The notes under the pieces were generated by a model. It had not been told where the DNA came from. It did not search any database and saw only the letters and a list, made by a program, of their open reading frames with translations. From Capillimicrobium parvum (lineage in GTDB: Bacteria > Actinomycetota > Thermoleophilia > Solirubrobacterales > Solirubrobacteraceae): 64,000 bases of DNA. Below, one piece after another: positions 35,201 to 50,819 of the stretch; the stretch's first letter is position 1, and every line of letters begins with the position of its first letter. The translations under genes and the position numbers were made by a program. The DNA lies in contig NZ_CP087164.1 of the NCBI RefSeq assembly GCF_021172045.1, forward strand, positions 1,612,001-1,676,000. Direction: 5' to 3'.

Positions 35201-35271
35201 GCGGGATTAGTTCATCGGTAGAACGCGAGCTTCCCAAGCTCGAGAGACGGGTTCGATTCCCGTATCCCGCT
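35201..35271 (+). tRNA. tRNA-Gly(CCC)
   Basis: 71 bases with a perfect seven-pair acceptor (GCGGGAT with ATCCCGC), D-arm, a CGAGC/GCTCG anticodon stem around TTCCCAA (anticodon CCC), and T-arm GACGGGTTCGATTCCCGT. CCA is not encoded. The gene is intact and serves as the attachment site of the integrated element: its 3' half from 35248 is repeated at 48322. Confidence 0.97.
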
Positions 35272-35306
35272 CTGGCGGAAGCCCCGGCCTCTACGGGGCT
35301 TTCGTC
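35248..35306. repeat. Left attachment repeat (att1)
   Basis: 59 bases identical to 48322-48380: the T-arm and acceptor 3' strand of tRNA-Gly plus the hairpin terminator behind it. Similarity continues weakly for about 40 bases past the core into the arm sites. Confidence 0.95.
35279..35302 (+). terminator. Intrinsic terminator of tRNA-Gly
   Basis: AAGCCCCG (35279-35286) pairs with CGGGGCTT (35294-35301) around a seven-base loop, followed by TCGTCATTT. The hairpin is part of the att core and so is present again at 48353 and, with one mismatch, at 50787. Confidence 0.75.
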
Positions 35307-35322
35307 ATTTCTGGGGGATGGC

Positions 35323-35344
35323 GAGGTACCAATGAGGTACCAAT
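35323..35344. repeat. Two tandem integrase arm-type sites, left end
   Basis: GAGGTACCAAT occurs twice back to back (35323-35333, 35334-35344). The same 11-mer, with one-base variation, is found twice just inside the right end and again, diverged, just outside the right att repeat. This is the pattern expected of integrase N-terminal-domain binding sites. Confidence 0.7.
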
Positions 35345-35573
35345 TTCCTGCCGGCGGCGTCATCCGCCTTGTCTTCGCAGCGCTCCCGGAGGTCATCAAC
35401 GACGAAGGAGCGAGCCCCCGGGCCTGGGGGCGATAAGACCGCAACGGAATGGGTTCCCATGCTCCTACCGCGCGCCGCCGAGAGGTCGCGGATCACCCGC
35501 CGGCCGGGCACGCCGGACTTCGGAACGCACCGCGCGGGTAGGTAGACGAACGTCCCCAACGCGGAGGTCGACC
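35345..35573. other. Non-coding left end of the element
   Basis: No gene is supported in these 229 bases. A short GC hairpin (GCCCCC/GGGGGC near 35418-35434) is visible; a promoter for the DUF2188 gene is likely but not clear. AGGTCGACC before 35574 can serve as its ribosome site. Confidence 0.4.
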
Positions 35574-35798
35574 ATGACCCGGCTTCACGTCGTACCCGAT
35601 GGCGATCGCTGGGCGGTCAAGCTGGAAGGCAGCGACTCGCCTCAGAGCACCCACGGAACCCAGGCGGAGGCGGAGAAGGCGGCGAAGTCCACGTCGGGCG
35701 TGACGGAGGTGATCATCCACGGTCGCGACGGCAAGATTCGCGACAGCGACACGATGGACCGAGCCCACGAAGGCCCGGGGCGCGACAAGGTGCACTAG
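35574..35798 (+). CDS. DUF2188 family protein
   Basis: 74 residues. HVVPDGDRWAVKLEGSDSPQSTHGTQAEAEKAAKSTSGVTEVIIHGRDGKIRDSDT follows the DUF2188 pattern exactly: a small beta-rich domain with a helix (TQAEAEKAA) and a terminal HGRDGKI. Members are common in bacteria and mobile DNA, function unknown. The stop overlaps that of the convergent zinc-finger gene by four bases. Confidence 0.85.
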   Translation: MTRLHVVPDGDRWAVKLEGSDSPQSTHGTQAEAEKAAKSTSGVTEVIIHGRDGKIRDSDTMDRAHEGPGRDKVH

Positions 35799-36127
35799 AT
35801 CGGGCCGGCGTGACGGCTGTCGTGGCGGGCGGTCAGCGCAAGTTGCGTTGCGCGTCGCCGCACGTCGCACGCCTCGCAGCCGGCGAACTCTGGGCACGCC
35901 GCCGTCGCGATCCATGACCGATCGGGTCTCGCGAGCAGCTTGCGGGACATGCGGTCGATCCTGCGGCCGTAGGCGCGGGCGCACGCCGGGCAGAGCCAGC
36001 CGGGCTGGTGCGGCGTCCAGCCAATCTCGAGAGGAGGGCGGAAATGGCCAGCGCATGCGATGCAGTCGCGGTCGCCTACGGTTGGTTGCGATTGGCCTGC
36101 CCATGACACGAACGCATGTTCGCGCAT
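35795..36127 (-). CDS. Putative small zinc-finger protein
   Basis: 110 residues, not recognised. Cys pairs are arranged like zinc ligands: DCIACAGH, LCPACARAYG and ACPEFAGCEAC. Codon-position composition supports translation on this strand and its start is divergent from the gene at 36264 across a repeat-rich gap. Possibly a DNA-binding or regulatory protein of the element. Confidence 0.55.
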   Translation of the reverse strand: MREHAFVSWAGQSQPTVGDRDCIACAGHFRPPLEIGWTPHQPGWLCPACARAYGRRIDRMSRKLLARPDRSWIATAACPEFAGCEACDVRRRATQLALTARHDSRHAGPI

Positions 36128-36158
36128 GAAACGCGCATGAAGCGTTCACGAACGTTTG
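36106..36158. repeat. Iteron-like repeat cluster in a divergent promoter region
   Basis: CACGAACG is present at 36108 and 36147, and GCGCATGAA at 36122 and 36133. Two of the units form an interrupted palindrome ending in AACGC/GCGTT. The cluster covers the start of the minus-strand zinc-finger gene and lies upstream of the gene at 36264, so it may be an operator or replication iteron. Confidence 0.5.
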
Positions 36159-36263
36159 CCTCATTGTGCTCCGAACGGTCAGCGGTTAGGTTGGGTCACA
36201 CAACGGAATCGCCCCCGCGCCGCTGACACGGCCGGGGGCATGGCCCAAGGAGGAGGTAGCTCC

Positions 36264-36797
36264 ATGGACGCGCAGAACGCTATCTGCGTTGGTAGCCCGC
36301 TGTCGGCATGGATCGTCAACCACGACGACGGGACCCTGTCGATCAGTGTCCCGCCCATCCTCATCGAAGGGATGCGAACGAGGTTGTTGCACGACTACGC
36401 GGTGGCGGCCGTCAGGCTGGCAGATGGTTTCGTAGACGAGCTGGCGCCGCGGGACTACGGACACGAGCGCGACCCATCGAGCGTGGTTACGGACACCGCG
36501 GTCACGGCCGATCGTGTCGAGTCCCTGCGAGAGCGCTGCGAAGCGGTCGCGGTGGCCCATGAGCAGCTCGACACGTTCGGCTGGACGGAGCCGAGGGACG
36601 TCACGTTGCGACGCGACCGCGATTGGTGGCTGCGGGCGGCGAGCGCCGAGATCACGGAGGTCGCCGGCTGCGTCACCGCGACGGTCGAGGACGGACCGCG
36701 CTACGCCAATCAGGAAGAGTGGGTGGAGCGGGTGGTCGAGTGGCAGGCGCACCTGGCGGAGGCTGTGGCCTTCCTGGGGGCGCTGCAAGCCGCCTGA
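36264..36797 (+). CDS. Hypothetical protein of the element
   Basis: 177 residues from ATG 36264 behind AAGGAGGAGG. No family is recognised. The middle is helical and charged (RLADGFVDELAPRDYGHERD, VESLRERCEAVAVAHEQLDTFGW), and the end ANQEEWVERVVEWQAHLAEAVAFLGALQ is a long amphipathic helix. There is no signal or membrane segment. It is the first of a rightward group on the left half of the element. Confidence 0.65.
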   Translation: MDAQNAICVGSPLSAWIVNHDDGTLSISVPPILIEGMRTRLLHDYAVAAVRLADGFVDELAPRDYGHERDPSSVVTDTAVTADRVESLRERCEAVAVAHEQLDTFGWTEPRDVTLRRDRDWWLRAASAEITEVAGCVTATVEDGPRYANQEEWVERVVEWQAHLAEAVAFLGALQAA

Positions 36798-36864
36798 CGG
36801 CCGTCGGAGCGGCTGCCAAGGGGATTCCCTTCGTGGCCGCTCCGCCGCCGGTAGCGGCCCTAGG

Positions 36865-37380
36865 ATGTGTTTCACCGTGAGACGACGCGTCTACACCGAA
36901 CACGACCAGGCCGAAGCGCTCATGATGCTCGCTGTCTGCCGCGGCAACGCCGAGGAAGCCCGCCGCCGGATGAAGGCGCGCGGCGACGACCCGCCCCCGG
37001 CGAGCACACTGAACATGTGGCGTACCGCGCAAGCCGACCGGTACGAGGACATCCGTAGCGAGATCAGCGTGAAGATCACCGCGGAGGTCGCGAACCAGGC
37101 GGAGGAGATCATGCTCGAGGCCGGCGAGCTCGAACGCGAGATGCTGGCGCGCATCCGTGAGGAGCTACCGAACATCAAGCCGGGCGAGCTGCCCGGGGCG
37201 TTGCGGAACGTGACGACGACGAAGGCGCTGAACAACGACAAGATCGCTGGCCCGATTCGGGGCCGGCCGACCGTAATCACCGAGCACCGGGACGCCACCC
37301 AGATCCTCGCTGAGTTGCAGCGCCTCGGCGTGATCGACAGCACCGCCGAAGAGATATCCGCGCTGCCGCCTGCCGCGTAG
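36865..37380 (+). CDS. HTH protein, small-terminase-like
   Basis: 171 residues from ATG 36865 (a GTG at 36877 is an alternative; TAGGAT at 36861-36866 could be its -10). An N-terminal helix-turn-helix region HDQAEALMMLAVCRGNAEEARRRMKARGDDPPPASTLNMWR is followed by a long helical stretch SEISVKITAEVANQAEEIMLEAGELEREMLARIREEL and a C-terminal LRNVTTTKALNNDKIAGPIRGRP. Small terminases of actinophages have this HTH plus oligomerising-helix plan. The match is by pattern only; a generic DNA-binding protein is possible. Confidence 0.5.
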   Translation: MCFTVRRRVYTEHDQAEALMMLAVCRGNAEEARRRMKARGDDPPPASTLNMWRTAQADRYEDIRSEISVKITAEVANQAEEIMLEAGELEREMLARIREELPNIKPGELPGALRNVTTTKALNNDKIAGPIRGRPTVITEHRDATQILAELQRLGVIDSTAEEISALPPAA

Positions 37381-37401
37381 AGTCGCGCCAACACTGGCGC
37401 C

Positions 37402-37866
37402 ATGAAAGGAACTCGTATGCGACGCACGACCGTCGCCGCTCTTCTCGCGATCACGATCGCTGTTCTCTGGGCGGTTCCCGCCTTCGGTGGACCTTCGATC
37501 GCAACGTTGTCACGTCGGATCGCTGGTGTAGGTGACCGTGAGCAGCGTCACTACAACGAGGTGGACCGCCGGATCAAAGCCGCTGTTCTGCTCACGCTCC
37601 AGCGTGGCGTCGTGACAGACGTGCAGAGTGCGACGATGGCCCAGAACGGGCGCTTCTACTCGGGAAGTGTGGGGTGCCAGTTCGGATACCGGCTGACGGG
37701 AGGCGGGGTCGACTGGGGGTTTTCGAGCGTCTACCTCGACTACGCGGTCGTATCAAGCGCGCCGGATCTGAGCGGCACCGTGTGGCGCGCCACGGCCAGT
37801 CAGGGTCTGTCCCCTGCGCCCGATGTGCTCCCGAGCGTCTATGCCGTCTGCATCAAGGCCGGTTGA
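37402..37866 (+). CDS. Secreted hypothetical protein
   Basis: 154 residues. A signal peptide MRRTTVAALLAITIAVLWAVPAFGG is clear. The mature part begins with a helix-forming SRRIAGVGDREQRHYNEVDRRIKAAVLLTL and has two Cys (SVGCQFG, AVCIKA) that could form a disulfide. No family recognised. It may be an exported surface or exclusion factor of the element. Confidence 0.6.
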   Translation: MKGTRMRRTTVAALLAITIAVLWAVPAFGGPSIATLSRRIAGVGDREQRHYNEVDRRIKAAVLLTLQRGVVTDVQSATMAQNGRFYSGSVGCQFGYRLTGGGVDWGFSSVYLDYAVVSSAPDLSGTVWRATASQGLSPAPDVLPSVYAVCIKAG

Positions 37867-38095
37867 CGAGATCACGGCTTACTCGCCCACGGTAGGTGCT
37901 GGACACGCTGACAGAGCGCCAGCCCGGCATGGTGCCGAAAGCGGGTCGAAGTGGCTCCGGTGTGGGCGTTAAAATCGGTGAAGTCATTGCCACTATTTGA
38001 AGCCAGGGGAAGATCGCCTCGCAACTTCATCGCCCGGCCACACCGGGAATTGGGGAACCGAAAGCATCGGACTTCGGCGAAGGAGACGATCACTG

Positions 38096-38581
38096 ATGGC
38101 TCGCATTTCAAAGGCTTCGCGGTTCACCACGGTCCGGGCGTTCTCTGCGCAGCTCTCTGCCGGGGCCACAACGGGCACGTATATCTCGTCTGTCGCGTCG
38201 GGCGGCACCGTGACCAACATCCAGTTCGTTCTGCGCGGAACGCTGCTCGCCGAGCACGGCACCAGATTCCGAGTGCGGACGCATGTCTGGTCCCTCGGCA
38301 ACGCCGGCAGCGATCCCACGACCACCGCGAAGGTGTCGCTCTATCAAGCAACGATCGCAGCGGCCACCACCGGATTCACGGCCACCCTCGGGTCGGAGGT
38401 CGCTTCCTCAGCGATCTCTGGGCTCGCTCCGACGCCTCGAGGCACGATCGTCAACGGCGAATCTTCGGACTTCACCATTGATCCCAGCAAGGTCTATGTG
38501 CCGGTGGTGGAGCTGCTCACCGCCAACCTGCCCGCGAGCACCAGCTTCACGTCCTACGTCGACATCATCGCGATCGACTAG
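38096..38581 (+). CDS. Hypothetical beta-rich protein, virion-like
   Basis: 161 residues, ATG 38096 behind AAGGAGA. The chain is rich in Ser/Thr/Ala/Gly and beta-strand formers (GATTGTYISSVASGGTVTNIQFVLRGTLL; SKVYVPVVELLTANLPASTSFTSYVDIIAID), lacks a signal peptide and has no Cys. This composition resembles phage decoration or fibre-head proteins. No homolog is recognised. The 230 bases before it carry no gene. Confidence 0.5.
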   Translation: MARISKASRFTTVRAFSAQLSAGATTGTYISSVASGGTVTNIQFVLRGTLLAEHGTRFRVRTHVWSLGNAGSDPTTTAKVSLYQATIAAATTGFTATLGSEVASSAISGLAPTPRGTIVNGESSDFTIDPSKVYVPVVELLTANLPASTSFTSYVDIIAID

Positions 38582-38722
38582 GCCCGCCTGGTGGGCGACA
38601 GCGAGTGGCGAGCGACCGTCTAGCGGTTCTTCGGCGGACCACTCGACAGATGTTCGACCGCTGAAAGCTCTCCAGCGGGTTAATGTCGGTCGTTCGGTTT
38701 GGGTCTCCACGGAAGGGTCTCG

Positions 38723-39307
38723 ATGCTTCGCCTGTTCGCCGCACTTGCTGCTTTCGCCCTGCTGGCTTTCGCCGGCTGCGGAACCACCGACGACAGCTCC
38801 TCTGGAGGCTCAACCGGCAGTGGCGAGTCCGGCGCCAAGAGCGAGTCGGACGGCTGCGGATTCAAGGCCACAGATGACTGCACGCCGCACGTCGGAGCCG
38901 ATGGCAAGGTTCGTGTCGACGCGATCGTGTGGAACCTCGAGTCAGCGCGCACAACCAACACGATCGGGGAGCAACAGTACGGGTTGGGCGCCAAGGCCGA
39001 TGGCGTCTTCGTCGTCGTCAAACTCAAGGCGACGAGCAAGAAGGACGAATCCGCGACCCTCTCCGACAATGTCATCAAGCTCGAGGTCAACGGCAACACA
39101 TACGACCCCGACAGCGACGGGAGCATCGCAGCGATCGGAGCTGGTGACGAGCCGTTCTTCCTCGAGACGCTCAATCCCGACTCGACCGAGAAGGGCACGG
39201 TGGTGTTCGATGTGCCGAAGAAGGTGCTCAACGACAAGCCCGAGTTGCGATTCGGCGAGCTCGGGTTCGGCGACACCCATGCGTACATCGCGCTCCCCCA
39301 GATCTAG
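38723..39307 (+). CDS. DUF4352-like lipoprotein
   Basis: 194 residues from ATG 38723. The signal peptide ends at the lipobox FAGC (ALLAFAGCGTTDD), then a Ser/Gly linker and a beta-sandwich: VDAIVWNLESARTTNTIGEQQYGLGAKADGVFVVVKLKATSKKDESATLSDNVIKLEVNGNTYDPDSDG is the DUF4352/telokin-like pattern, ending VVFDVPKKVLNDKPELRFGELGF. It is anchored on the outer face. Phage-encoded lipoproteins often block superinfection, which is a possible role here. Confidence 0.75.
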   Translation: MLRLFAALAAFALLAFAGCGTTDDSSSGGSTGSGESGAKSESDGCGFKATDDCTPHVGADGKVRVDAIVWNLESARTTNTIGEQQYGLGAKADGVFVVVKLKATSKKDESATLSDNVIKLEVNGNTYDPDSDGSIAAIGAGDEPFFLETLNPDSTEKGTVVFDVPKKVLNDKPELRFGELGFGDTHAYIALPQI

Positions 39308-39334
39308 CCCAGTGCCGAACCACCGGTGAAATCC

Positions 39335-40039
39335 ATGTCACGCTCGCAAGCTCCCCCCGTGTCGGCTGTCATTGACCAATCACGTTTCCCAGCCTTGTTT
39401 TCCTTCGTGAGTTGGGGCATCGACATGCAGCTCGGCGACATCCGAGACATGCTCAGGCTGCCCATGTTTGACGTTGGGCTAGAAGCCGGCCAGAACTTCG
39501 CAGCGACCACTTCGCTGGTTAATGTGATCGCCGGCGCCTCGGTCTGGTTCTACGACGCCTCAGAGGACGGGCTGTCCAACCGCGGAGACCGTAGTCGCCG
39601 CTATCGAGAGACTCTCGAGGGGTATTGGCCATGGGATACCGAGGCCGTTGACTCTGAGATAGGAATCAAGGTGCTCTACGACCACGTGCGAAACCCGCTC
39701 GCGCACGCATTTGGCATGCCAGGCCTGGACGAAGGCACGCTGATCTCGATTGCCAAGAGCCCGCTAACCGAAGCGCAGATCGCTGAGATCGACCACGCCG
39801 AGACACGGCCCAGCTGGATCGGCCCAACGATGATGCCCGCACCATCAGGTGCGCCCGACCGCGCGTATTTCGTGAACGTCCCAGCGCTTTACTGGGGGGT
39901 GCGGCGGACGCTCTACGCGGTGCTGACCGACGAGCAGCAACTGCCAGCCGCCGATGCTCTGGCCCAATCGCTGATGCGCTCCCTCGTACACCCCAACGCC
40001 TCATGGCGCGCGTCCGGCTCAGCGCCAGCGGGCGGCTAG
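39335..40039 (+). CDS. Hypothetical protein with HEPN-like RNxxxH motif
   Basis: 234 residues from ATG 39335 (GTG 39326 is an alternative). KVLYDHVRNPLAHAFGM contains R-N-P-L-A-H, the R-x4-H element that marks catalytic HEPN RNases and many HEPN-like helical proteins. The N-terminal half has SVWFYDASEDGLSNRGDRSRRYRETLEGYWPWD, which is unrecognised. It belongs to the cargo-like group with the lipoprotein gene 27 bases upstream. HEPN assignment rests on one motif and its setting. Confidence 0.5.
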   Translation: MSRSQAPPVSAVIDQSRFPALFSFVSWGIDMQLGDIRDMLRLPMFDVGLEAGQNFAATTSLVNVIAGASVWFYDASEDGLSNRGDRSRRYRETLEGYWPWDTEAVDSEIGIKVLYDHVRNPLAHAFGMPGLDEGTLISIAKSPLTEAQIAEIDHAETRPSWIGPTMMPAPSGAPDRAYFVNVPALYWGVRRTLYAVLTDEQQLPAADALAQSLMRSLVHPNASWRASGSAPAGG

Positions 40040-40390
40040 GCGATCCAGCACTCAAACGGCAGCGACCCAGGCCGAAACCCACGGCCCGCGCACACGCACC
40101 CCAAAACCCCCGATCCCACCGGGGCACACGCCCCCACACGCGCCCAAACCCGCCGAAACCCCCAAAGATCAACAACACCAGTAAGCCTACAGCCCGAGTG
40201 CGCTTGCGGCTGGGATCGTTGCCGAAAACGCGCGTGAGGCACCCGCGCGCTTCTGCCCTGCTTCTCGTTACGCGCATAGGCTTGTGGCAGCCGAAGCGCC
40301 GGAGCCACAAAGGAAGCTCGGGGACAATGCGGATCGCGCGAACGTAGGCTGATCCTCCACTGTGATCCGTGGCACGCTCAACGTCTGCTC
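40040..40390. other. Non-coding C-rich tract
   Basis: No gene is supported. From 40095 to 40165 the plus strand has at least seven C runs of three to five bases in a row, with few G, so the minus strand can form G-quadruplexes. The region separates the rightward cargo genes from the serine recombinase unit. Confidence 0.55.
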
Positions 40391-40400
40391 GAGTCGGTCT

Positions 40401-40429
40401 GTACAGCAATCGGTCGTTTGCTGTACGGT
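40401..40429 (+). promoter_or_regulatory. Inverted-repeat operator before the serine recombinase
   Basis: GTACAGCAA (40401-40409) and TTGCTGTAC (40418-40426) are perfect inverted arms with an 8-base spacer; the right arm overlaps a -10-like TACGGT (40424-40429). This fits a dimeric repressor site, possibly for the recombinase itself or the excisionase-like protein encoded nearby. Confidence 0.6.
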
Positions 40430-40500
40430 CGCTCCTCTAGTGGGCCGGCGACGGGGGCAACCGTCCCGGCCCGTGGCACCGAGGCGATAGGAGCGCCCTG

Positions 40501-41166
40501 ATGCGAGTTGTAGGTTACGTGCGGGTCAGTACCGAAGAGCAGGCGGATAGCCGAGCTGGGCTGGACGCACAGCGAGCTGCGATCGCCGCTGAGGCGCAGC
40601 GTCGTGGTTGGACGCTAGTCGACGTCATCGAGGACGCTGGGTATTCCGCCAAGGATCTGCGTCGGCCCGGCATCCGTGTGGCGCTCGAGGCGATGGCCTC
40701 AGGTCACGCTGATGTCCTGATCGTCGCCAAGCTGGACCGCTTGTCACGCTCGCTGGTCGATTTCGCCGGACTGATGGCGACCGCTCAGCGTCAGGGGTGG
40801 GCTTGCCTCGCGCTCGACACACCGGCCGACCCGACAACCCCGATGGGCGAGGCGATGGTTTCGATCATGGCCACGTTCGCTCAGCTTGAGCGGCGTCTGA
40901 TCGGCCAGCGCACACGAGACGGGTTGGCCGCGAAGCGCGCGGCCGGCGTGCGGCTCGGGCGTCGCTCAGAACTCCCGGTCACGGTCGTCTCGCGCATCGT
41001 CCGTGAGCGCGCAGAAGGCCGCAGCTTGCGCGCCATTGCTGAGCACCTCAACGCTGACAGCGTGGCGACCGGCCAGGGCGGAAAGCGCTGGTACGCCTCG
41101 AGCGTCCGGGCGGCGTTGAGTGCCGCCGAGCGCAATGGCGCCTCGACGCCCGTACAAACCGTCTGA
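40501..41166 (+). CDS. Serine recombinase (resolvase/invertase family)
   Basis: 221 residues. The catalytic serine is in VVGYVRVSTEEQADSRAGLDAQ, with the conserved arginines in AKLDRLSRSLVDF and FAQLERRLIGQRTRDGLAAKR. The C-terminus has a resolvase-type helix-turn-helix (EGRSLRAIAEHLNADSV, GKRWYASSVRAAL). The length is that of small resolvases, and it lacks the long C-terminal domain of large serine integrases. It likely resolves or inverts DNA in the element or acts as a regulator. Confidence 0.9.
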   Translation: MRVVGYVRVSTEEQADSRAGLDAQRAAIAAEAQRRGWTLVDVIEDAGYSAKDLRRPGIRVALEAMASGHADVLIVAKLDRLSRSLVDFAGLMATAQRQGWACLALDTPADPTTPMGEAMVSIMATFAQLERRLIGQRTRDGLAAKRAAGVRLGRRSELPVTVVSRIVRERAEGRSLRAIAEHLNADSVATGQGGKRWYASSVRAALSAAERNGASTPVQTV

Positions 41167-41184
41167 CGTACCGATGACCGACGC

Positions 41185-41436
41185 CTATGTGGCATCGCGA
41201 TCGGCGAGCCACTCATCGCATATCGAGAGTCGGTAGCGCCGGCTGCCGCCCACCATCCGTGACGGCATCCCCTGTGTCTGCCACCGGCGGACTGTGCGGC
41301 CGGACACCCCAAAGTGGTTCGCAACGACACGTTCGGCCACCCACGGCTGCCATCGCGTCCCGTGATCGTCGAAGCGGTCCGGGAAGGGGATGACCATCCC
41401 GCCAACGTCGGCTTGGCCACTACTCGGTGTACGCAT
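41185..41436 (-). CDS. Excisionase-like helix-turn-helix protein
   Basis: 83 residues. RWQPWVAERVVANHFGVSGRTVRRWQTQGMPSRMVGGSRRYRLSICDEWLADRDAT follows the winged-helix MerR/AlpA/HTH_17 plan (HFGVSGRTVRRWQxxGMP...RRYRL). It is convergent with the serine recombinase and divergent from the 41933 gene. It could be a second excisionase or a repressor for the adjacent operator sites. Confidence 0.75.
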   Translation of the reverse strand: MRTPSSGQADVGGMVIPFPDRFDDHGTRWQPWVAERVVANHFGVSGRTVRRWQTQGMPSRMVGGSRRYRLSICDEWLADRDAT

Positions 41437-41932
41437 TGCCGTCCTCTCCTGGCCATCACTGTCAGGGGAGCATTTAGCCCCACCCTGGCCACGTCAAGAG
41501 CCGGACCTGTCAGTCGAGCGGTGACCATGAGGCGGTGGTGAGTCCGTGCTTCACGGTAGCTTCGGGGTCTCGTAAGGGGAAACCCGGTCGCATCGTCAGT
41601 GTGAGCCCCGAGCGTGTCCTTTCATATGAGAGGGACACACGTCGCCACCAAACCCGAATCCCGCCCACCGTATTTGGCGCGTCCGCGCTCGCAAGCGCAA
41701 GGGGGGAGGGGCCTTCGCGTTCCGTTGCGATCCCGAATCTATTCTTCCGCGGGCTGCTCAAATTCTGGCGGTTAACGGCTTTTCTGCGACAGAAGTGCGT
41801 CAGTTTGTGCTGCGGATTGATGCCGGGTGGGCAGGTAGACTGGGGGTGTGCTGCATGACCGTGATATAGCTGTGAGTTGCCTGGGCCGCTGGTGGTGGCC
41901 GTTTGCGCGCGTGTGCGGCGGGTGGGTGTGTG
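41437..41932. other. Large divergent intergenic region with operator-like repeats
   Basis: Nearly 500 bases lack a convincing gene (a 107-codon frame at 41535-41858 has no family features). CTGTCAG occurs at 41459 and 41507 and again twice-like near 42732-42753. A hairpin GTGTCC/GGACAC encloses ATAT at 41614-41638. A promoter for 41933 probably lies near 41840 (TAGACT). Confidence 0.45.
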
Positions 41933-42709
41933 ATGGCTAGGGCGGGCTTGCTGCGGTACACCAATCCGAACACGTGGACGTTCCCGGGTGGCTGGCAGTA
42001 CAACCCGCCCCAGCAGCAGGCGCCTGCGGTCCTGCCGGCCAACAGTACTCAGCCGGGGGCGCCTCCGGGCGAGGTGGTGCCGTTCGATGCGGCGTTGACC
42101 GCGCAGCTCAACGGGGCTGATTTGAACTACGGCAACACGTTGGCGGCTCTGGCGGCGCAGGAGCCGATCATCCAGCGTTCGTTTGGGTATCAGGATGATG
42201 GGTCGATTGACCCGAACAACCCGTTCTCGAGGGCGCAGCTTCTTCAACGGGCGTATCAGCAGACCCAGCGCGGAACGGGGAACCGGTACGCCGCCCGCGG
42301 GCAACTGTATTCCGGGGCGTTGCAGCGGGCGCAGAGCGATAACCAGTTCAACTATCAGGCGCAGGACGCGATGCTGAGGGGTTCGTATGCGCAGCAGCTT
42401 GCGGAGCTCGCCGGGTTGCAGGCTGATGCGGCGAACACGAGGAACAACCAGCGGAGCGATGCGTACGAGAACTGGGTGATGTCGCAGGTGGCGAACCGGA
42501 ACGCTCCACCTGTTGATCCAAGTCCGGCGCCTGCTGGTGGCCCCAGTCCCGAGGAACCCCTGGGTCCGGCGTCTCCGATGCCGCCGCAGCAGTCGTTCGC
42601 GAGTCTTCAGGGCACCCCGGTGGAGCAGTATCTGCGCGCGGTGTATGCCGCGTCTCAGGGAGCGGGATCTGCCGGTGGGCTTGTGGGTCGCCTGTTCGCT
42701 CGGCGGTAG
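41933..42709 (+). CDS. Phage virion-like protein, Gln/Asn-rich
   Basis: 258 residues from ATG 41933. The N-terminus LRYTNPNTWTFPGGWQYNPPQQQ is followed by a helical core rich in Gln, Asn and Ala: FSRAQLLQRAYQQTQRGTGNRYAARGQLYSGALQRAQSDNQFNYQAQDAML. This composition and the RGQLYSGALQ stretch resemble proteins in the structural module of actinobacteriophages. Its codon use (many CAG, TTG and T-ending codons) differs from chromosomal genes here. The final third is Pro-rich. Exact role unknown. Confidence 0.6.
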   Translation: MARAGLLRYTNPNTWTFPGGWQYNPPQQQAPAVLPANSTQPGAPPGEVVPFDAALTAQLNGADLNYGNTLAALAAQEPIIQRSFGYQDDGSIDPNNPFSRAQLLQRAYQQTQRGTGNRYAARGQLYSGALQRAQSDNQFNYQAQDAMLRGSYAQQLAELAGLQADAANTRNNQRSDAYENWVMSQVANRNAPPVDPSPAPAGGPSPEEPLGPASPMPPQQSFASLQGTPVEQYLRAVYAASQGAGSAGGLVGRLFARR

Positions 42710-42731
42710 CTCCGCGCCTTGCTGTGACGGA

Positions 42732-42761
42732 CTGTCATTACGACCACTGTCAGTGGTAGTG
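42732..42761 (+). promoter_or_regulatory. Palindromic operator/promoter downstream of the virion-like gene
   Basis: ACCACTGTCAGTGGT (42743-42757) is a perfect odd palindrome. It lies between a -35-like CTGTCA (42732-42737) and a -10 TAGTGT (42756-42761) 18 bases apart, so a repressor bound here would block transcription. The next start codon is 222 bases away and an intrinsic terminator intervenes. Confidence 0.55.
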
Positions 42762-42838
42762 TTGCCGGTACAGCGTCAACGCTTGGAACACGTTCACGCT
42801 TAGAACCACCCCCACGCATCATCCACTGAACGCCTCTC

Positions 42839-42877
42839 CTAAGGGCCACTCTTCGCGGAGTGGCCCTTAGTTGTTTT
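42839..42877 (+). terminator. Strong intrinsic terminator
   Basis: CTAAGGGCCACTC (42839-42851) and GAGTGGCCCTTAG (42858-42870) form a perfect 13-bp stem with a TTCGCG loop followed by TTGTTTT. It is the best Rho-independent terminator in the window. It ends either the 41933 transcript or a short RNA started at about 42768. Confidence 0.9.
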
Positions 42878-42983
42878 CTGTGCACCGCCGGACCGCGCAC
42901 TATGATCCGCGCCGTTCAGTGGAGGATGACGCGCGAGTTCCAGCGTGGCACCTCCAGAAAAGTTCATATATGGAGGTCCCGCT

Positions 42984-43556
42984 ATGGGAACCACATTGGC
43001 CCGAGAGGGCACGGATGTTCAGCCTGCGGAGCATGTTCAGGCCGCGGAATGGCTCGAGCTGATCGCCGAGGCCGAGAGGTACGAGGTGATTACGGGTGAG
43101 CGAGCCGATACGTACCGGAGATACGTGGTTGTCTGCCGTCAGCAGTTCGAGCGTCATGCGCCGGGGCTGCGACGGGACATCAAGCGGGCGCAGGTCGCGA
43201 GCGCACATTACGAGAAGGTCGAGCCGATTCGCCGCCGGATCGTCCGTGCGGTCCGTGAGCGGGCAGCGCGGGTAGTGCGATCGGCGAGGGGTTTTTACGT
43301 CGCTACGGCTGCGCGTGAGCACCGCGTGGCGCCTTCCCGCCGTCGCGCGTCCACGAGCCGCGACGACGGCGACAGCGGGCCAGAACCAGCAGCGAACGGC
43401 CCGACGCTCAGTGTTGAGCAGTTTGCTGGGCTCACCGCTGGCCTGACTAGCAGCGAGCGCAACACGGTGTTCAACGGGCTGTCTGTCAGGCTGCGTCAGC
43501 AGTTCTGGGATGACGTGCAGGCCCGAACGAACCGCAACCGGGAGGTAGCGCGATGA
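42984..43556 (+). CDS. Hypothetical protein preceding the primase-helicase
   Basis: 190 residues from ATG 42984 with TGGAGGT upstream. HVQAAEWLELIAEAERYEVITGERADTYRRYVVVCRQQFERHAPGLRRDIKRAQVASAHYEKVEPIRRRIVRAVRERAARVVRSARGFYV is helical and basic; the C-terminal half has a linker (SRDDGDSGPEPA) then VEQFAGLTAGLTSSERNTVFNGLSVRLRQQFWDDVQA. It overlaps the primase gene by four bases and may be a replication accessory. No family recognised. Confidence 0.65.
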   Translation: MGTTLAREGTDVQPAEHVQAAEWLELIAEAERYEVITGERADTYRRYVVVCRQQFERHAPGLRRDIKRAQVASAHYEKVEPIRRRIVRAVRERAARVVRSARGFYVATAAREHRVAPSRRRASTSRDDGDSGPEPAANGPTLSVEQFAGLTAGLTSSERNTVFNGLSVRLRQQFWDDVQARTNRNREVAR

Positions 43557-45685
43557 CTACTCTCGATTGCGTAGATGTGCGCGCGCTTTTCGCCGACCTC
43601 GGTGTGTCATTGCCGGCCGGCGGGCCCAACGTGTCCGTGTCGTGCTTCGCGCCAGGCGACGTTCATCGCAACGGGGATCGGAGCCCCTCCGCCAGCGTGA
43701 ACGTCGAGACGGGCGCCTGGCTATGCCATGGGTGCGGAGCGAAGGGCGGCGCGTACGACGCTGCGCTCGCACAGGGACGGGCACCGGGTGATGCGATGGA
43801 GTTGCTCAAGCGCCATGGGCTGGTTGGCGGGGATGACACGCCTCGCCGCGGCGCCGCCAGTCGCTCGGGTGGCGATAGACCCCCCGCCGCGCTTCCCGAC
43901 GAGGCGACGCTCGTCCAGTGGCAGCAGGACTTGCAGGGACACGCCAAGCTGCTCAAGCGTCTCGAGGATCGGAACGGCTGGACGGCCCGGGCGCTCGCTG
44001 CGGCCGGGGCTGGGTGGGGCCAGGCGGATGGCTGGCGGGAGAAGCGCCTCGTGTTCCCGATCAATGACACCGGCGGAGAGCTCATTAACGTGGTCGGCTA
44101 CCTCCCAGGAGGCGAGCCGAAGTCGCTAGCGCTCCGAGGACGCCCACGGGACATCTTCCCGCCCGTCGAGACGATCGAGGGCCATGAGGTGACGATCGTC
44201 GAGGGTGAGGGCGACGCGGTGAGCATGAACGTGTTCGAGTTGCCCGCGGTCGCGATTCCCGGCACCGGGGCCGCGACGGGCTTCAGCAAGTACGCGGCTC
44301 GGTTCGCGCTCGTCGATCGTGTGAACGTGTCGATGGATTGCGACCCGCAGGGCCGTGGCGCCCGAGAGGCGATCGCGGCCGCGTTGCACGCTGTCGGCGT
44401 GGATGTTCGCGTTCTCGACATCGACCCGGGCCGGGATGACGGCTACGACGTTGGCGACATGTTGCGGGAAGCCTCAGAGTTCGGCGCTGACGGCGTGGCG
44501 AGCGCAAAGAAGGCGCTCATGGCGCTGGCGCGGGAGGCGGTGTCGTGGTCGCCGCCAGGGGATGTCGTTTCTGAGCCCGCCCACGAGGCAACGTCTGGTG
44601 TGGCCGACGAGATCGCGGTTCCGGCCACGAGCGAGACGCCCGTGGGGGAGACAGACCGCTACGCGGGCCGGATCATCGACCTCGACGCCCTACTCGCCAA
44701 GCCGCCCGAGCCTATCCCGTGGCGGGTGCAAGGTGTAGTCGCTGACGGCACACTGACAATCGTCAGCGGCGAGAGCGGCGGCGGCAAATCATGGCTCGCA
44801 CAGGCGCTCTGCACAGGTGTCGCCCGCGGCCAAGCCATGGCGGGCATCCTCTGCGTCAAGGGGATCGCGCTCTACATCGACGCGGAGATGGGGCCACGAA
44901 TGTTCGTGGACCAGCGGCTACGGCCCACCGGTGCCACGACCGCCGAGTTCCAGTACATCGACGCGATGGGGCTCGACATCTCCATGCCGGACGACCTCGT
45001 ATGGGTCCGTCGCCAGGTCGAGAAGCTGGGCGCGAACCTTGTGGTGATCGACTCGCTACGCCGGCTCACGCCGTCGAAGTCAGAGAATGATTCCGACGAT
45101 ATGGCCCCCGCCGTGTCCGCCCTGGCGAAGCTCGCGCGTGACACGAAAGCCGCTGTCGTACTGATCCACCACAAGGGCGACTCGGAGAAGTTCTTCCGCG
45201 GCTCGTCGGCGATCAAGGATCAGGCCGACGCGCTGTTCGCCCTGCTGCGCGACCCCAACGACGAGGACGCCCCACGCACTCTCAGTTGCGGCGGAGGGCG
45301 CGGCAAGATGCGCTACGCGCCCGAGCCGGCCGATGTCTTCCTTGGCATCAGTCCCGAGTGCGGAGGTGTCGAGAGTTCTTCGCCTCCGGAGAACCCCGGG
45401 CCGCAGGTCCCGGCGAGAGAGGCGGTAGCCGCAGCGATCAAGGCGGCGCTGCCCGCAGCAACGAAGACGGAAGTCGCCCGGAAGGTCGGGCGAGCGATCA
45501 ATGACAGGACGTTCCGCGACGCATGGCGCGATCTCGAGGAGGCGGGCGAAATCGCGGAGAACTCGCGCATTTGGGAGGGTAGTAGTCATCGCCAGCCCCT
45601 AGACAACATGACGACTACTACCCCCCTCCACACGGAGGGCCGGCGTCGCGAAGCGATCTACGGCGACGAGAGGGCGGCGGCATGA
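43553..45685 (+). CDS. CHC2/TOPRIM primase fused to RecA-like replicative helicase
   Basis: 710 residues. N-terminal CHC2 zinc ribbon: SCFAPGDVHRNGDRSPSASV then WLCHGCGAKGG (about 27-66). TOPRIM domain: VTIVEGEGDAVSMNVFELPAVAIPGTGAATGF with DCDP later (about 213-265). From about residue 375 an AAA_25/RepA-type ATPase: VADGTLTIVSGESGGGKSWLAQAL (Walker A), ALYIDAEMG, NLVVIDSLRRL (Walker B), VVLIHHKGDSEKFFRGSSAIKDQAD. A C-terminal winged-helix-like stretch (PAATKTEVARKVGRAINDRTFRDAWRDLEEAGEI) follows. It should prime and unwind the element's DNA after excision, as P4 alpha-type proteins do. Confidence 0.92.
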   Translation: MTTLDCVDVRALFADLGVSLPAGGPNVSVSCFAPGDVHRNGDRSPSASVNVETGAWLCHGCGAKGGAYDAALAQGRAPGDAMELLKRHGLVGGDDTPRRGAASRSGGDRPPAALPDEATLVQWQQDLQGHAKLLKRLEDRNGWTARALAAAGAGWGQADGWREKRLVFPINDTGGELINVVGYLPGGEPKSLALRGRPRDIFPPVETIEGHEVTIVEGEGDAVSMNVFELPAVAIPGTGAATGFSKYAARFALVDRVNVSMDCDPQGRGAREAIAAALHAVGVDVRVLDIDPGRDDGYDVGDMLREASEFGADGVASAKKALMALAREAVSWSPPGDVVSEPAHEATSGVADEIAVPATSETPVGETDRYAGRIIDLDALLAKPPEPIPWRVQGVVADGTLTIVSGESGGGKSWLAQALCTGVARGQAMAGILCVKGIALYIDAEMGPRMFVDQRLRPTGATTAEFQYIDAMGLDISMPDDLVWVRRQVEKLGANLVVIDSLRRLTPSKSENDSDDMAPAVSALAKLARDTKAAVVLIHHKGDSEKFFRGSSAIKDQADALFALLRDPNDEDAPRTLSCGGGRGKMRYAPEPADVFLGISPECGGVESSSPPENPGPQVPAREAVAAAIKAALPAATKTEVARKVGRAINDRTFRDAWRDLEEAGEIAENSRIWEGSSHRQPLDNMTTTTPLHTEGRRREAIYGDERAAA

Positions 45686-45912
45686 GTACTGGCTCGTCTA
45701 CGCACCCGCACGCCCGACTGGTGGACGCGTTGGAGGCGGCTGAGATGCTGGGGGTGCCCAAGACGTGGGTGCTGGCGGAGGCCCGCGCCGATCGGGTGCC
45801 TCATGTGCGGTTGGGCCGGTACGTCCGCTTCGAGCCCGCCCAGCTTGAGACGTGGTGGCAGTCGCGACGCCGAGGACCGCAGCGAGCCGGCCGGGTCGGC
45901 CGAGCGGCTTAG
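45682..45912 (+). CDS. AlpA/excisionase-type HTH protein
   Basis: 76 residues overlapping the primase stop by ATGA. LVDALEAAEMLGVPKTWVLAEARADRVPHVRLGRYVRFEPAQLETWWQSRR is a textbook excisionase-family helix-turn-helix (HTH_17). With the integrase starting 31 bases later, it is the likely directionality factor for excision. Confidence 0.88.
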   Translation: MSTGSSTHPHARLVDALEAAEMLGVPKTWVLAEARADRVPHVRLGRYVRFEPAQLETWWQSRRRGPQRAGRVGRAA

Positions 45913-45943
45913 GATGCCGCGACCGCGAACGTCGAGGAGCGAC

Positions 45944-47173
45944 ATGACGACATCCCTTGCTGAGAAGCCGAGGCGGTCCTACGGGACGGGCGGGCTCTTC
46001 GTTCGAGCCGACCGCAGCGGACGGCAGACGTGGTACGGCAAGTGGCGCACGAACGGCCGACAGATCAAGCGCAGGATCGGCCCGAAGCGCGGCGAGGGCT
46101 CGCGTGACGGGCTGACCCGGACGCAAGCGGAGGCGGAACTTCGCCGGCTGATCGCTGAGACGCCAGGGGCAGCGCGGGTAGGGGAGCGGCTGACGATGCA
46201 TGAGGCCGGCCGGCGCTATACGCGCTACCTGGCAGCGTCGGGGCGCAAGCCGTCAACGCTCGCTGCCGTGCGCGGGCACCTGGCTCACTGGATCGAGCCG
46301 TTCTTCGCGGATCGCGCGATCGACGGAATCCGGACCGAGGATGTGGCGGATCTTGTGACGCTGATGCAGGCCGGGCAGCGGCCAGGAGGGCTGAGACGGA
46401 CTAAGCCGCTGTCGCCGAAGACGATCCGCAACGCGATCGGCACGTTGAACGCGCTGATGTCGTATGCCCAGCGGAAGGGCTGGACGGGATCGAACCCCGT
46501 CCTGGATCTCGAGTTGCCCGTCGTCGAGCCCGACGAGGACATCCGGTTCCTCGAGCCTGTAGAGGTCGAGGCGGTCGGAGCCGCAGCAACGTCGGGGACG
46601 TACGAGGCGGTTGATCGGGCGCTCTACATCACCGCGGCGATGACCGGACTCCGACAGGGCGAGTTGATCGCGTTGCGGTGGCGCGACGTCGACTGGACCG
46701 CGGGCCGCATCCGGGTCAGGCAGAACTACGTGCTGGGCGAGTTTGGGACGCCGAAGAGCCGTCGATCGACCAGAAGCGTGCCGATGGCTGACCGGGTCGC
46801 CGGGGAGCTCGACTCGCTGTTCAAGGCGTCGAGCATGCAGGGCGACGACGACCTCGTGTTCGCTGACCCGCTGACTGGCGGGCCGCTCGCGAAGGCGGCG
46901 ATTCTCCGCCGGTTCCGCAAGGCGCTCAGGGTCGCGAGGCTCGATGACGCGCATGTCTTCCATGACCTACGGCACACGTTCGGGACGCGGATGGCTGCGG
47001 CCGGTGTGCCAATGAGGACGTTGCAGGAGTGGATGGGACATCGCGATATCGCGACTACGCAGCGGTATGCGGACTACGCCCCAGCACCTGAGCACGAAGC
47101 GGCTTTAATCGCCGGAGCGTTCAGATCGTCGTCGCCGATCGTTTCGGCCGCGCCTGGTGTCGTGAGCCCGTGA
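45944..47173 (+). CDS. int: Tyrosine site-specific integrase
   Basis: 409 residues from ATG 45944 (GAGGAG upstream; ATG 45914 is an alternative). An N-terminal arm-binding region (GTGGLFVRADRSGRQTWYGKWRTNGRQIKRRIG) is followed by a SAM-like core-binding domain (TMHEAGRRYTRYLAASGRKPSTLAAVRGHL) and the catalytic domain with Arg in MTGLRQGELIALRW, HDLRHTFGT, GH in WMGHRDI, and Tyr in TTQRYADYAP. It recombines the tRNA-Gly 3' end with the element's att site. A decayed relative lies at 50571. Confidence 0.96.
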   Translation: MTTSLAEKPRRSYGTGGLFVRADRSGRQTWYGKWRTNGRQIKRRIGPKRGEGSRDGLTRTQAEAELRRLIAETPGAARVGERLTMHEAGRRYTRYLAASGRKPSTLAAVRGHLAHWIEPFFADRAIDGIRTEDVADLVTLMQAGQRPGGLRRTKPLSPKTIRNAIGTLNALMSYAQRKGWTGSNPVLDLELPVVEPDEDIRFLEPVEVEAVGAAATSGTYEAVDRALYITAAMTGLRQGELIALRWRDVDWTAGRIRVRQNYVLGEFGTPKSRRSTRSVPMADRVAGELDSLFKASSMQGDDDLVFADPLTGGPLAKAAILRRFRKALRVARLDDAHVFHDLRHTFGTRMAAAGVPMRTLQEWMGHRDIATTQRYADYAPAPEHEAALIAGAFRSSSPIVSAAPGVVSP

Positions 47174-47185
47174 GAGCATCAGCGA

Positions 47186-48247
47186 ATGGACGGACTGCGC
47201 GAACTCGCGCTACTCGAGAGCCGTGACTACCTCGAAATCCGATTTCAACAGCGGCATCAACGCGAACTGAGCGCCAGCAAGGCCCGGTCGATCATCGCCC
47301 ACCTAATCCAGGGCCGTGACTACTGGGCCAGCGCACAAGGCGCAAGCGACCTGATCCGACCGCTGCTCCAGTACTACGGCGCGCTGGCTTTCGCCCGCGC
47401 CGCGATCCTCTTTCAAGGCCGAGAACAGAACGAGGAGGCCCTAACCGGAGGGCACGGGCTAAAAGCCATTCAGTGGCGCCAGGAGCTCTCACAGGGACCG
47501 CGTGCCTTGCTTGATCTCCGGATCCGAGTTACGGGCGGGACCATGCAACAGATCGCGAACGCCACGGGAAATCATGAGCCTTCACGGATCTACACCGCTC
47601 CGTTCCCGTCCTGGAATCTGCATCGTCGCGTCGGTACGCCCTCGATTGAGGGTGCGGAAGTGCGGATTCGTGATCTCCTTAACCGCCTGCCGGCGACCAT
47701 CAAAATGTACGAGAGAGTCACCGGTTTGCGTGCGGCTGCCTATCCCGGCTTTGCATTCGAGGTCGGGGAACGCCGCCCTGGCATGCCCGGGCCCGAGGTG
47801 ATCGTGTTCGAAGGATTAGCGGGACTGCCTACACCGGACGAACTCCGCAGCGCGCTTCAGTTGAGCGAGGACCAAGAGATTCACGAGCGCCAGAACCATC
47901 AATGGGGACAAGGCGGACCAGCCCGGACGTACTACATGAGCCGAGACGACGACATCTCAGAGCGATGTCTGGCGACGGGTGCTGACGGGAGCGCCTGGGT
48001 GATCACTCCGATGCCCGACGGCACGGTCTGGTCGCAACTACTAATGATGCTCGCCCTTAGCTTCTGTCTTGGGGCGCTCGTCCGATATCACCCGACGCTG
48101 TGGATGGATCTCGCGGGGCAGGCGCGGGGTGATATCGCCCTTCCGCTCGTCCGCCACGCGCAAGAAGCAATCGATCAGCAGATCCCGCACCTTATGGCGC
48201 AGCATTTCAAGCTGCGCGCCGGGGTACCAATCGAGGTACCAATCTGA
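47186..48247 (+). CDS. YaaC-like protein, cargo between int and attR
   Basis: 353 residues starting 13 bases after int. The N-terminal pattern SKARSIIAHLIQGRDYWASAQGASDLIRPLLQYYGALAFARAAILF matches the helical YaaC family (B. subtilis YaaC, function unknown). The middle and C-terminal parts are mixed alpha/beta with a hydrophobic WSQLLMMLALSFCLGALVRYHPTLWMDLAG as in YaaC. Its 3' end carries two of the arm-type repeats, so the integrase sites are embedded in coding sequence. Position between integrase and att is a usual place for defence or fitness cargo. Confidence 0.75.
   Translation: MDGLRELALLESRDYLEIRFQQRHQRELSASKARSIIAHLIQGRDYWASAQGASDLIRPLLQYYGALAFARAAILFQGREQNEEALTGGHGLKAIQWRQELSQGPRALLDLRIRVTGGTMQQIANATGNHEPSRIYTAPFPSWNLHRRVGTPSIEGAEVRIRDLLNRLPATIKMYERVTGLRAAAYPGFAFEVGERRPGMPGPEVIVFEGLAGLPTPDELRSALQLSEDQEIHERQNHQWGQGGPARTYYMSRDDDISERCLATGADGSAWVITPMPDGTVWSQLLMMLALSFCLGALVRYHPTLWMDLAGQARGDIALPLVRHAQEAIDQQIPHLMAQHFKLRAGVPIEVPI
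48221..48243. repeat. Two integrase arm-type sites, right end
   Basis: GGGGTACCAAT (48221-48231) and GAGGTACCAAT (48233-48243) are one base apart, in the same orientation as the left pair at 35323. They overlap the last codons of the YaaC-like gene. Confidence 0.7.
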
Positions 48248-48321
48248 GCAAACCTCAGCGCACCTGAGCAGACCGGACACCACTCAGCCAAGCGGAAAGC
48301 GCGGCAGAGCAGCGCTTTCGG

Positions 48322-48380
48322 CGGGTTCGATTCCCGTATCCCGCTCTGGCGGAAGCCCCGGCCTCTACGGGGCTTTCGTC
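48322..48380. repeat. Right attachment repeat (att2)
   Basis: 59 bases identical to 35248-35306. It is a partial tRNA-Gly copy (T-arm and acceptor 3' strand) with the terminator hairpin. The sequence right of it (gtttttt, then GGTAGCGATGAGGTAGCAAT) resembles the region right of att1 and not ordinary chromosome. Confidence 0.95.
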
Positions 48381-48452
48381 GTTTTTTGGGGGGCAGCCGT
48401 GGTAGCGATGAGGTAGCAATGTGCGGTCAACACGAGCGTTTAGATTGGCGCC

Positions 48453-48923
48453 GTGTTCATCGCCCAACTCGTCTTCAACGAGCAAGCGGTCGACAAACTG
48501 GCCTCCCGAGGCATCACGATCGCGAACGTCCGAAGCGTTGCCGACGCAGGGCCCTACTGCCCCGCGAATCCCAATCCGAGGGTGCCTGGCAGCCGACTGA
48601 TGATCGGCATCGACCTCCGGGGCCGGGGCCTCACCATCGTCTTGCAGCCTGACGAGAGCGACGATGCTGTCTGGCACGTCATGACAGGGTGGCCCTCCTC
48701 ACCCCGACGCAGCGTGCGGCTTGGCAAAAGCACGTCTGACGAAGATCATGAAGCACGTGGACCACCGCGCCCATCACCCCACCATCGACCTAGATCCAAC
48801 GGAGGAGTTCCCGCTCGAGGAAGGCGAGCGGCCGAGCCCGAATCCGAGCGTGGAGGTTGTGCTCGCGGTACCCGTGTCACGGGCCGATGTTCGGGCGCTC
48901 GAGGCGCTTGCGCAGATCAATGA
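48453..48923 (+). CDS. BrnT/DUF4258-like toxin with overlapping extension
   Basis: 156 residues from GTG 48453, six bases behind TAGATT. The first 95 residues (VFNEQAVDKLASRGITIANVRSVADAGPYCPANPNPRVPGSRLMIGIDLRGRGLTIVLQPDESDDAVWHVMTGWPSSPR) follow the small BrnT/DUF4258-like ribonuclease-toxin plan. After about residue 95 the chain becomes Arg/Pro-rich and runs over the next gene in another frame, so a one-base indel near 48730 may have removed the original stop; a TGA is available one frame away at 48737. Confidence 0.6.
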   Translation: MFIAQLVFNEQAVDKLASRGITIANVRSVADAGPYCPANPNPRVPGSRLMIGIDLRGRGLTIVLQPDESDDAVWHVMTGWPSSPRRSVRLGKSTSDEDHEARGPPRPSPHHRPRSNGGVPARGRRAAEPESERGGCARGTRVTGRCSGARGACADQ

Positions 48924-49083
48924 CGTCTCAGCGGTCGCGATGGCCAAGGCCTTCCTTCACGAGGCGGTCGCCATTCGCCTTGGCTCGGCATCCGGTCACC
49001 GCACTGCGCACCGCGCTAGGCGCACCTCCATCCCAACCTTTCGGCAGCGGCTGTGGTGGCTGCTGCGCGCCCCACGCACATGA
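48748..49083 (+). CDS. Antitoxin-like partner protein
   Basis: 111 residues from ATG 48748. An acidic N-terminal part (HHPTIDLDPTEEFPLEEGERPSPNPSVEVVLAVPVSRADVRALEALAQINDVSAVAMAKAFLHEAV) looks like a small ribbon-helix-helix/antitoxin-type module, followed by a basic tail. It overlaps the toxin-like frame and its stop overlaps the next start by ATGA. The role follows from position and size and is not proven. Confidence 0.5.
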   Translation: MKHVDHRAHHPTIDLDPTEEFPLEEGERPSPNPSVEVVLAVPVSRADVRALEALAQINDVSAVAMAKAFLHEAVAIRLGSASGHRTAHRARRTSIPTFRQRLWWLLRAPRT

Positions 49084-49346
49084 CCACCGCCCAACTCGGC
49101 TCCTACACCTTCGATCGCGTCACCTACGACGACGCGAACGACGTGCTGTACCTCGGCGACGGCGTCGCCGGCGAAGAGACCGACCTCGGCCACATGTTCA
49201 TGTACCCCGACGACACCAGCCGCGAGGTCGTCGGCGCAGTGCTCGAGGCGCCCCGCCAGGACCTCGAGCAGCGCGGCGCGCTGCTCGTCACGCTGCCCGA
49301 CGGCCGGCGCGTCGACGCCAGCACGCTCGCGCGGTTCTGTCGCTGA
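49080..49346 (+). CDS. DUF2283-like protein
   Basis: 88 residues, ATG overlapping the previous stop. GSYTFDRVTYDDANDVLYLGDGVAGEETDLGHMFMYPDDTSREVVGAVLEAP corresponds to the DUF2283 pattern YDxxxDVLYL..., a small beta-rich domain that often accompanies toxin-like DUF4258 genes. It ends 18 bases before the tRNA-Cys-like gene. Confidence 0.7.
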   Translation: MTTAQLGSYTFDRVTYDDANDVLYLGDGVAGEETDLGHMFMYPDDTSREVVGAVLEAPRQDLEQRGALLVTLPDGRRVDASTLARFCR

Positions 49347-49364
49347 CCCGCCGGTAGAGCACCG

Positions 49365-49435
49365 CGCCCGGTGGCCGAGTGGTGAGGCGGCGGCCTGCAG
49401 AGCCGTCCACGCGGGTTCGATCCCCGGCCGGGGGT
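49365..49435 (+). tRNA. tRNA-Cys(GCA)-like gene with two mismatches
   Basis: A 71-base cloverleaf: D-arm GCC/GGC, anticodon stem GCGGC/GCCGT around CTGCAGA (anticodon GCA), T-loop TTCGATC and discriminator T as in tRNA-Cys. Pairs 2-71 and 49-65 are G-G mismatches, and base 37 is G. It may be a functional but divergent tRNA or a decaying copy. It lies inside the second element. Confidence 0.7.
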
Positions 49436-50570: not shown

Positions 50571-50705
50571 AGCGCTGGATGCGGCAAAGCTCGACGACAC
50601 GCATGTCTTCCACGACCGGCGCCACACGTTCGGTACCCGCATGGCCGCGGCTGGCGTGCCATGCGAACGTTGCAGGACTGGATGGGCCATCGGATCACGG
50701 TGCGG
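50571..50705 (+). pseudogene. Remnant of a tyrosine integrase
   Basis: The frame LDDTHVFHDRRHTFGTRMAAAGV matches the catalytic region of the integrase at 45944 (LDDAHVFHDLRHTFGTRMAAAGVP). One base is missing at 50660/50661; the next frame then continues MRTLQDWMGHR, as in the intact protein, after which the catalytic tyrosine region is scrambled. Only about 45 codons are left. It abuts the third att copy, the same gene-to-att arrangement as in the intact element. Confidence 0.85.
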
Positions 50706-50771
50706 TGTTCGATGCCTCAGACGATCGTGACGCCGGCCTCCGGGGCACGATCGCGGACCCGGACAGCGACC

Positions 50772-50819
50772 ATCCCGCTCTGGCGGAAGCCCCGGCCTCT
50801 ACCGGGCTTTCGTCGTTTT
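50772..50819. repeat. Third, partial attachment repeat (att3)
   Basis: 48 bases from ATCCCGCTCTGGCGGAAGCC to the T run match att2 with one mismatch in the terminator stem (CTACCGGG instead of CTACGGGG). The tRNA T-arm part is missing. It marks the outer right boundary of the tandem elements. Confidence 0.85.

Follow-up and report, generated by a model that had tools for sequence, protein, structure and literature searches.

An integrated 13-kb element with features of a capsid-less phage satellite at the tRNA-Gly(CCC) gene of Capillimicrobium parvum

The window analysed here is a stretch of 64,000 nucleotides from the actinobacterium Capillimicrobium parvum (contig NZ_CP087164.1, positions 1,612,001 to 1,676,000), and all coordinates below are counted from its first letter. 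It harbors an integrated element (35248-48380) which measures 13,074 bp from one attachment (att) copy to the other and is located at the 3′ end of a tRNA-Gly(CCC) gene. An initial annotation had described this region as a phage-satellite-like element encoding an integrase, an AlpA-like excisionase, a primase-helicase, a protein resembling small terminase subunits (TerS), virion-like proteins and cargo, with a helper phage to be expected.

Boundaries and gene content

The target gene of the integration, tRNA-Gly(CCC) (35201-35272, + strand), is present as an intact copy at the left end. The element is bordered by two exactly matching direct repeats of 59 bp, attL (35248-35306) and attR (48322-48380), which start in the T-arm of the tRNA and extend through its terminator, thus comprising the tRNA 3′ end plus the terminator hairpin. 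Just inside each end, two copies of the 11-bp site GAGGTACCAAT were found, in tandem on the left (35323-35344, starting at 35323 and 35334) and on the right (48221-48243) as the variant GGGGTACCAAT with one mismatch at 48221 and as GAGGTACCAAT at 48233. These copies are probably arm-type sites bound by the integrase. The G+C content is 0.62-0.69 inside the element and about 0.72 around it. The repeats, the arm-type-like sites and the lower G+C content bear out the boundaries given in the initial annotation. In a scan with Rfam, tRNAs were the sole matches.

Gene calls were made with a simple home-made caller, and the gene lists of the relatives discussed below are approximate; family assignments of element genes are based on Pfam, PHROGs or NCBIfam. 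All genes of the element are located on the + strand with one exception noted below. The right half carries a replication and integration cassette, preceded by a strong terminator-like hairpin (42839-42870). It includes a CHC2/TOPRIM primase (residues 1-330) fused to an AAA_25 ATPase (residues 367-700; 43553-45685), in which Toprim_2 scored above the cut-off and AAA_25 reached 8.7e-30, with the CHC2 zinc finger below its own cut-off, an AlpA-like excisionase (xis, 45682-45912; HTH_17 at 1.1e-8, TIGR01764) and a tyrosine integrase (int, 45944-47173; PF00589 at 2.9e-31). All three proposed core functions were thereby confirmed at the level of domains.

Families of the large terminase subunit (TerL), portal, capsid, tail or lysis proteins were not detected above threshold among the open reading frames (ORFs) of the element in these scans, and a tblastn search of the region 35.2-51.0 kb with proteins of related elements revealed no relics of a packaging module, which upholds the reported lack of portal, large terminase, major capsid and tail genes. 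The scans of element proteins also gave no family for a relaxase, a coupling protein or other component of a type IV secretion system (T4SS), or an FtsK-type translocase; an element with only an origin of transfer (oriT) would escape such scans. Both kinds of genes that would speak against a satellite, capsid and packaging functions among the hypothetical proteins or genes for conjugation, were thus sought in the element and neither was seen.

The left half is dominated by proteins of less certain function. A DUF2188 protein (35574-35798) also matches the PADLOC model PDC-S16 and is the only PADLOC match in the element. It is followed by an orphan (36264-36797), the TerS-like protein with a helix-turn-helix (HTH) motif and a coiled coil (36865-37380), an orphan with an N-terminal signal-like segment (37402-37866), an orphan that is beta-rich in a low-confidence model (38096-38581), a DUF4352 lipoprotein-like protein (38723-39307) and an orphan that is possibly cargo (39326-40039). 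Further to the right, domain matches identified a small serine recombinase of the resolvase/invertase type (40501-41166). A second AlpA/Nu1-like HTH protein is encoded on the - strand (41185-41436; Phage_Nu1 at 4.4e-5, below the cut-off) and has a homologue in L010. The cassette is preceded by a low-complexity orphan (41933-42709) and by a further orphan (42984-43556) whose gene runs into the 5′ end of the primase gene. Downstream of int, a gene of the YaaC family (47186-48247) was recognised by its domain. This gene and the other cargo may have a role for the host or in defence.

Directly to the right of attR lies the remnant of an older tandem element (48381-50825), with an arm-like site at 48410, a third, degenerate att copy starting at 50772 and, between the two, a C-terminal integrase fragment (50584-50692; nucleotide identity 82-88%). 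A low-scoring tRNA-Cys(GCA) (36.5 bits, 49365-49436) is also located in this remnant. In genome G345 (L052:9128-9201, L042), the same tRNA-Gly(CCC) gene, again with similar CcdA/TlpA-type genes upstream, has a different integrase-primase-AAA element behind it. Given this second element at the equivalent site, tRNA-Gly(CCC) is, on sequence grounds, an integration hotspot.

Relatives with and without capsid genes

The best matches of the AAA half and of xis are found in capsid-forming elements of about 10 kb that lack recognisable tails, and those of int are among the best there. In detail, the IMG/VR contig L005 encodes a counterpart of the AAA half with 73% identity (76% in the DNA over 952 bp). 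The same contig also bears genes for an HNH protein, TerL, portal and a fusion of protease and major capsid protein (MCP). The excisionase is 61-62% and the integrase 34-47% identical to gene products of contigs L103 and L122, and these contigs also carry TerL, portal and protease-MCP.

A profile search of IMG/VR with TerL collected 36 contigs (43-100% identity), L005 among them. All 36 have lengths of at most 11.3 kb, and more distant TerLs occur on contigs of up to 63.6 kb, a size comparison that truncation of contigs may affect. Nearly all of the 36, with L108 and L123 as exceptions, have TerL oriented divergently from portal and protease-MCP. Contig L117 (10,494 bp) is probably complete, since it ends in a terminal repeat of 123 bp. 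Integrases and connectors are present in L117 and L119, and among their scanned proteins no family for a tail tube, tape measure or baseplate was detected, the sole tail match being weak and to a connector-type protein.

Such elements also exist as chromosomal islands. The complete 10.4-kb island L065 (genome G351), integrated in tRNA-Pro with a 14-bp att repeat, is a chromosomal relative of the L005 capsid module. Besides HNH, TerL, portal, protease-MCP and a head-tail adaptor, it encodes an integrase that is preceded by a small HTH-like ORF. No tail genes were recognised among its scanned ORFs, some small ORFs being outside the scan. An island of about 9.1 kb in tRNA-Arg of G497 (L070:6857-16048) contains a lone HK97-type MCP together with an AAA gene, a xis-like gene and int, and neither portal nor terminase was recognised in it. 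Taken as a family, the elements with TerL divergent from portal and protease-MCP range from 4 to 11.3 kb and comprise viral contigs (L091-L126 from IMG/VR) as well as chromosomal islands, including L064-L067, with connectors and integrases. An earlier description of this tail-less family was not found in the literature searched, and earlier reports may exist.

Relatives of the cassette are also known apart from capsid genes. Similar islands with primase/AAA, xis and int, but devoid of capsid genes, were identified in G121, G345 and G218. In addition, a primase-xis-int cassette of this kind is common to the window and to L148, L045, L043, L046 and L048, which resemble integrative and conjugative elements (ICEs). 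In the integrase tree, the window integrase groups with those of L122 and L148 (the latter as L024) and with a remnant from its own genome.

A degraded sibling is located elsewhere in the same chromosome (about 4.146-4.155 Mb; L090:6283-15104), integrated in tRNA-His with a 46-bp att repeat. Its attR is split by a Mutator-type insertion (PF00872) with an 8-bp duplication, CGAACCCC. Integrase fragments of the sibling are 54-59% identical to the window integrase over the catalytic half and are accompanied by a primase remnant, a portal fragment is 56% identical to that of L005, and TerL pieces are 55-59% identical to that of L064. A related integrase-primase cassette and the tail-less packaging module were therefore present in cis at one time in the history of this strain.

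Phage satellite, mobile island or stranded remnant

We favour the view, with a probability that we put at about even, that the element is a helper-dependent, capsid-less phage satellite of the type of phage-inducible chromosomal islands (PICIs). Since it has its own genes for integration and replication, no shell or mating genes, and relatives with a shell and no tail, it probably spreads in the particles of another phage. Upon infection by a helper or its induction, Xis and Int would excise the element, which would then be replicated by the primase-AAA protein. The TerS-like protein at 36865, or a shared packaging site, would steer the DNA into foreign particles, for which either a tailed phage or a capsid-forming sibling element might be the source. 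An extension of this scheme, in which soil actinobacteria would host a tripartite chain with tailed phages providing tails for the ~10-kb capsid-forming elements and the capsids of the latter packaging the window element as a satellite of a satellite, appears highly improbable to us.

A candidate for redirecting packaging is the protein at 36865. A homologue resides in a prophage of G404 (L039, L050, L051) together with a serine integrase, TerL, portal and major head protein, others were found on a contig of G667 and in a short stretch next to tRNA-Met in G695, and the G667 homologue as query led to two further IMG/VR contigs. Because of these homologues we regard the protein as phage-linked. 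Its match to Mu gp27 in Pfam is weak (0.0076, below the cut-off) and a sequence search of the PDB gave no match of note. Designation as a proven TerS was thus dropped, and the proposed TerS-like protein stands as a phage-linked protein with a putative function.

Several observations weigh against a satellite. A single-sequence AlphaFold2 (AF2) model of 36865 (pLDDT 68) had no Foldseek match that would indicate a TerS fold, and TerL does not adjoin the homologues in the examined flanks of two viral contigs. The 'virion-like' proteins of the initial annotation did not survive scrutiny: for 38096 and 41933 no phage homologue was found in searches of viral sequences and genomes. The likeness of 41933 to a G404 prophage protein is at chance level (33 of 500 shuffled sequences score as high), and 38096, with an AF2 pLDDT of 48, was discarded as a capsid or tail protein. 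For 41933 and 42984, genome matches were weak (E 5e-4 to 0.01) and were taken to be noise. A search of the same genome for a resident helper with models for portal (PF04860), the L005 MCP and TerL, the only ones tried, was negative; of three weak terminase matches, one is the degraded sibling and two are among ordinary chromosomal genes. A second element with the full gene set was not found among the genomes and viral contigs searched. The primase half is 38-44% identical to ICE genes from the same bacterial family, and the ICE L148 carries an integrase and an excisionase (45% and 41% identical) downstream of a T4SS coupling protein (PF02534). The order of L122, L148 and the own-genome remnant around the window integrase is left undecided by the tree, since the fork is open. 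Finally, the sequence shows the boundaries, gene content, absences and cassette kinship described above, and induction, packaging and a helper are predictions. The phage-satellite character thus keeps its footing in boundaries, gene set, absences, tail-less relatives and the sibling, and has lost the virion-like proteins as an argument.

The kinship with ICEs can also be explained if the element is an integrative genomic island, similar to integrative and mobilizable elements (IMEs), that excises and is spread by conjugative mobilisation or chance transduction and is not dedicated to parasitism of phages. The ICE-borne primase, int and xis relatives and the capsid-less islands in three other genomes are in line with such an origin, which we nevertheless consider rather unlikely: the element has no relaxase or coupling gene, its AAA half and xis are much closer to genes of capsid-bearing elements than to those of ICEs, and 36865 is linked to phages. 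That same link would also suit a stranded derivative of a capsid-forming tail-less element or prophage, which has lost its packaging module, gained cargo and become immobile. Decay seems common here, as judged from the degraded sibling, which retains pieces of TerL and portal, and from the decayed tandem remnant abutting attR. Yet the att repeats are identical, both pairs of arm-like sites are kept, the frames of int, xis and primase-AAA are open, and no remains of TerL, portal or MCP were seen in the element, so that this explanation appears unlikely as well. The orphans without family matches (36264, 37402, 38096, 41933 and 42984) leave room for a small and complete virus whose capsid went unrecognised, a reading that we judge extremely improbable. 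All proteins except primase-AAA, integrase and YaaC have fewer than 270 amino acids and therefore fall short of the length that TerL or portal proteins usually have, and the orphans tested against viral collections gave no homologue.

Comparison with known systems

Returning to the satellite interpretation, the closest parallels are PICIs such as the Staphylococcus aureus pathogenicity islands (SaPIs) and EcCICFT073 (PMC6092414). The element resembles them in its size of about 13 kb (PICIs, ~15 kb), integration at a tRNA gene, the int, AlpA-like and primase module at the domain level, the absence of structural and lytic genes, a possible TerS (for redirection, PICIs use their own TerS, the helper cos site or Rpp) and cargo. 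This comparison is one of feature lists and domains; for the window element, redirection of packaging, induction by a helper and interference are putative. A further PICI trait is an att site unused by prophages, and the tRNA-Gly(CCC) of G345 is occupied by another integrase element.

According to the features listed in PMC10690885, capsid-forming PICIs (cf-PICIs) encode TerL, portal, protease, MCP and connectors of their own. In the relatives L065, L117, L119 and L122, TerL, portal, protease-MCP and/or connectors are present with no recognised tail genes, and the ~10-kb TerL-divergent elements largely fit a cf-PICI-like family by the features listed there. They differ in the divergent orientation of TerL and portal and in the fusion of protease to MCP, and no TerS was recognised among their genes. 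Cassette genes are common to these relatives and the window element, but the latter has no capsid or packaging module. Because it shows PICI traits in part and lacks those of cf-PICIs, it is not assigned as a proven member of any known family.

P4-like satellites likewise combine an integrase, an AlpA/Vis-type regulator and a primase-helicase in the absence of structural genes. Here the primase-ATPase consists of TOPRIM plus AAA_25 in place of the alpha primase-helicase, and Sid, Psu, Delta or other P4 families were not recognised in the general scans, which included no dedicated P4 model. The satellites MulchRoom and MiniFlayer of Streptomyces (PMC10690885) also have actinobacterial hosts and, as the relatives described here, carry genes for a capsid but not the whole set for a tail. 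Key replication genes are missing from them; in the window element, a replication gene is present and capsid genes are absent. The ICEs L043, L045, L046 and L148 share the same kind of cassette and differ by conjugation genes (PF02534 in L148), of which the element has none, as it has none of the relaxase, T4SS/coupling or FtsK genes typical of ICEs, actinomycete ICEs (AICEs) and IMEs. Prophages, in turn, differ from the element in having modules for packaging, capsid and tail.

For elements below 15 kb, a survey of actinobacterial prophages goes no further than to suggest that they may be satellites (PMC10023795), and nothing relevant on phage satellites in Thermoleophilia or Solirubrobacter was found in the literature searched, although earlier reports may exist. 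The locus directs attention to ~10-kb tail-less capsid-forming elements as a family present both in viral contigs and in chromosomes of this lineage, and also to capsid-less relatives with the same integration and replication cassette. With the elements named here, the question of how capsid modules are acquired and lost by satellites becomes testable. They also advise caution: a short viral contig that carries TerL, portal and MCP may be a whole satellite and not a fragment of a tailed phage.

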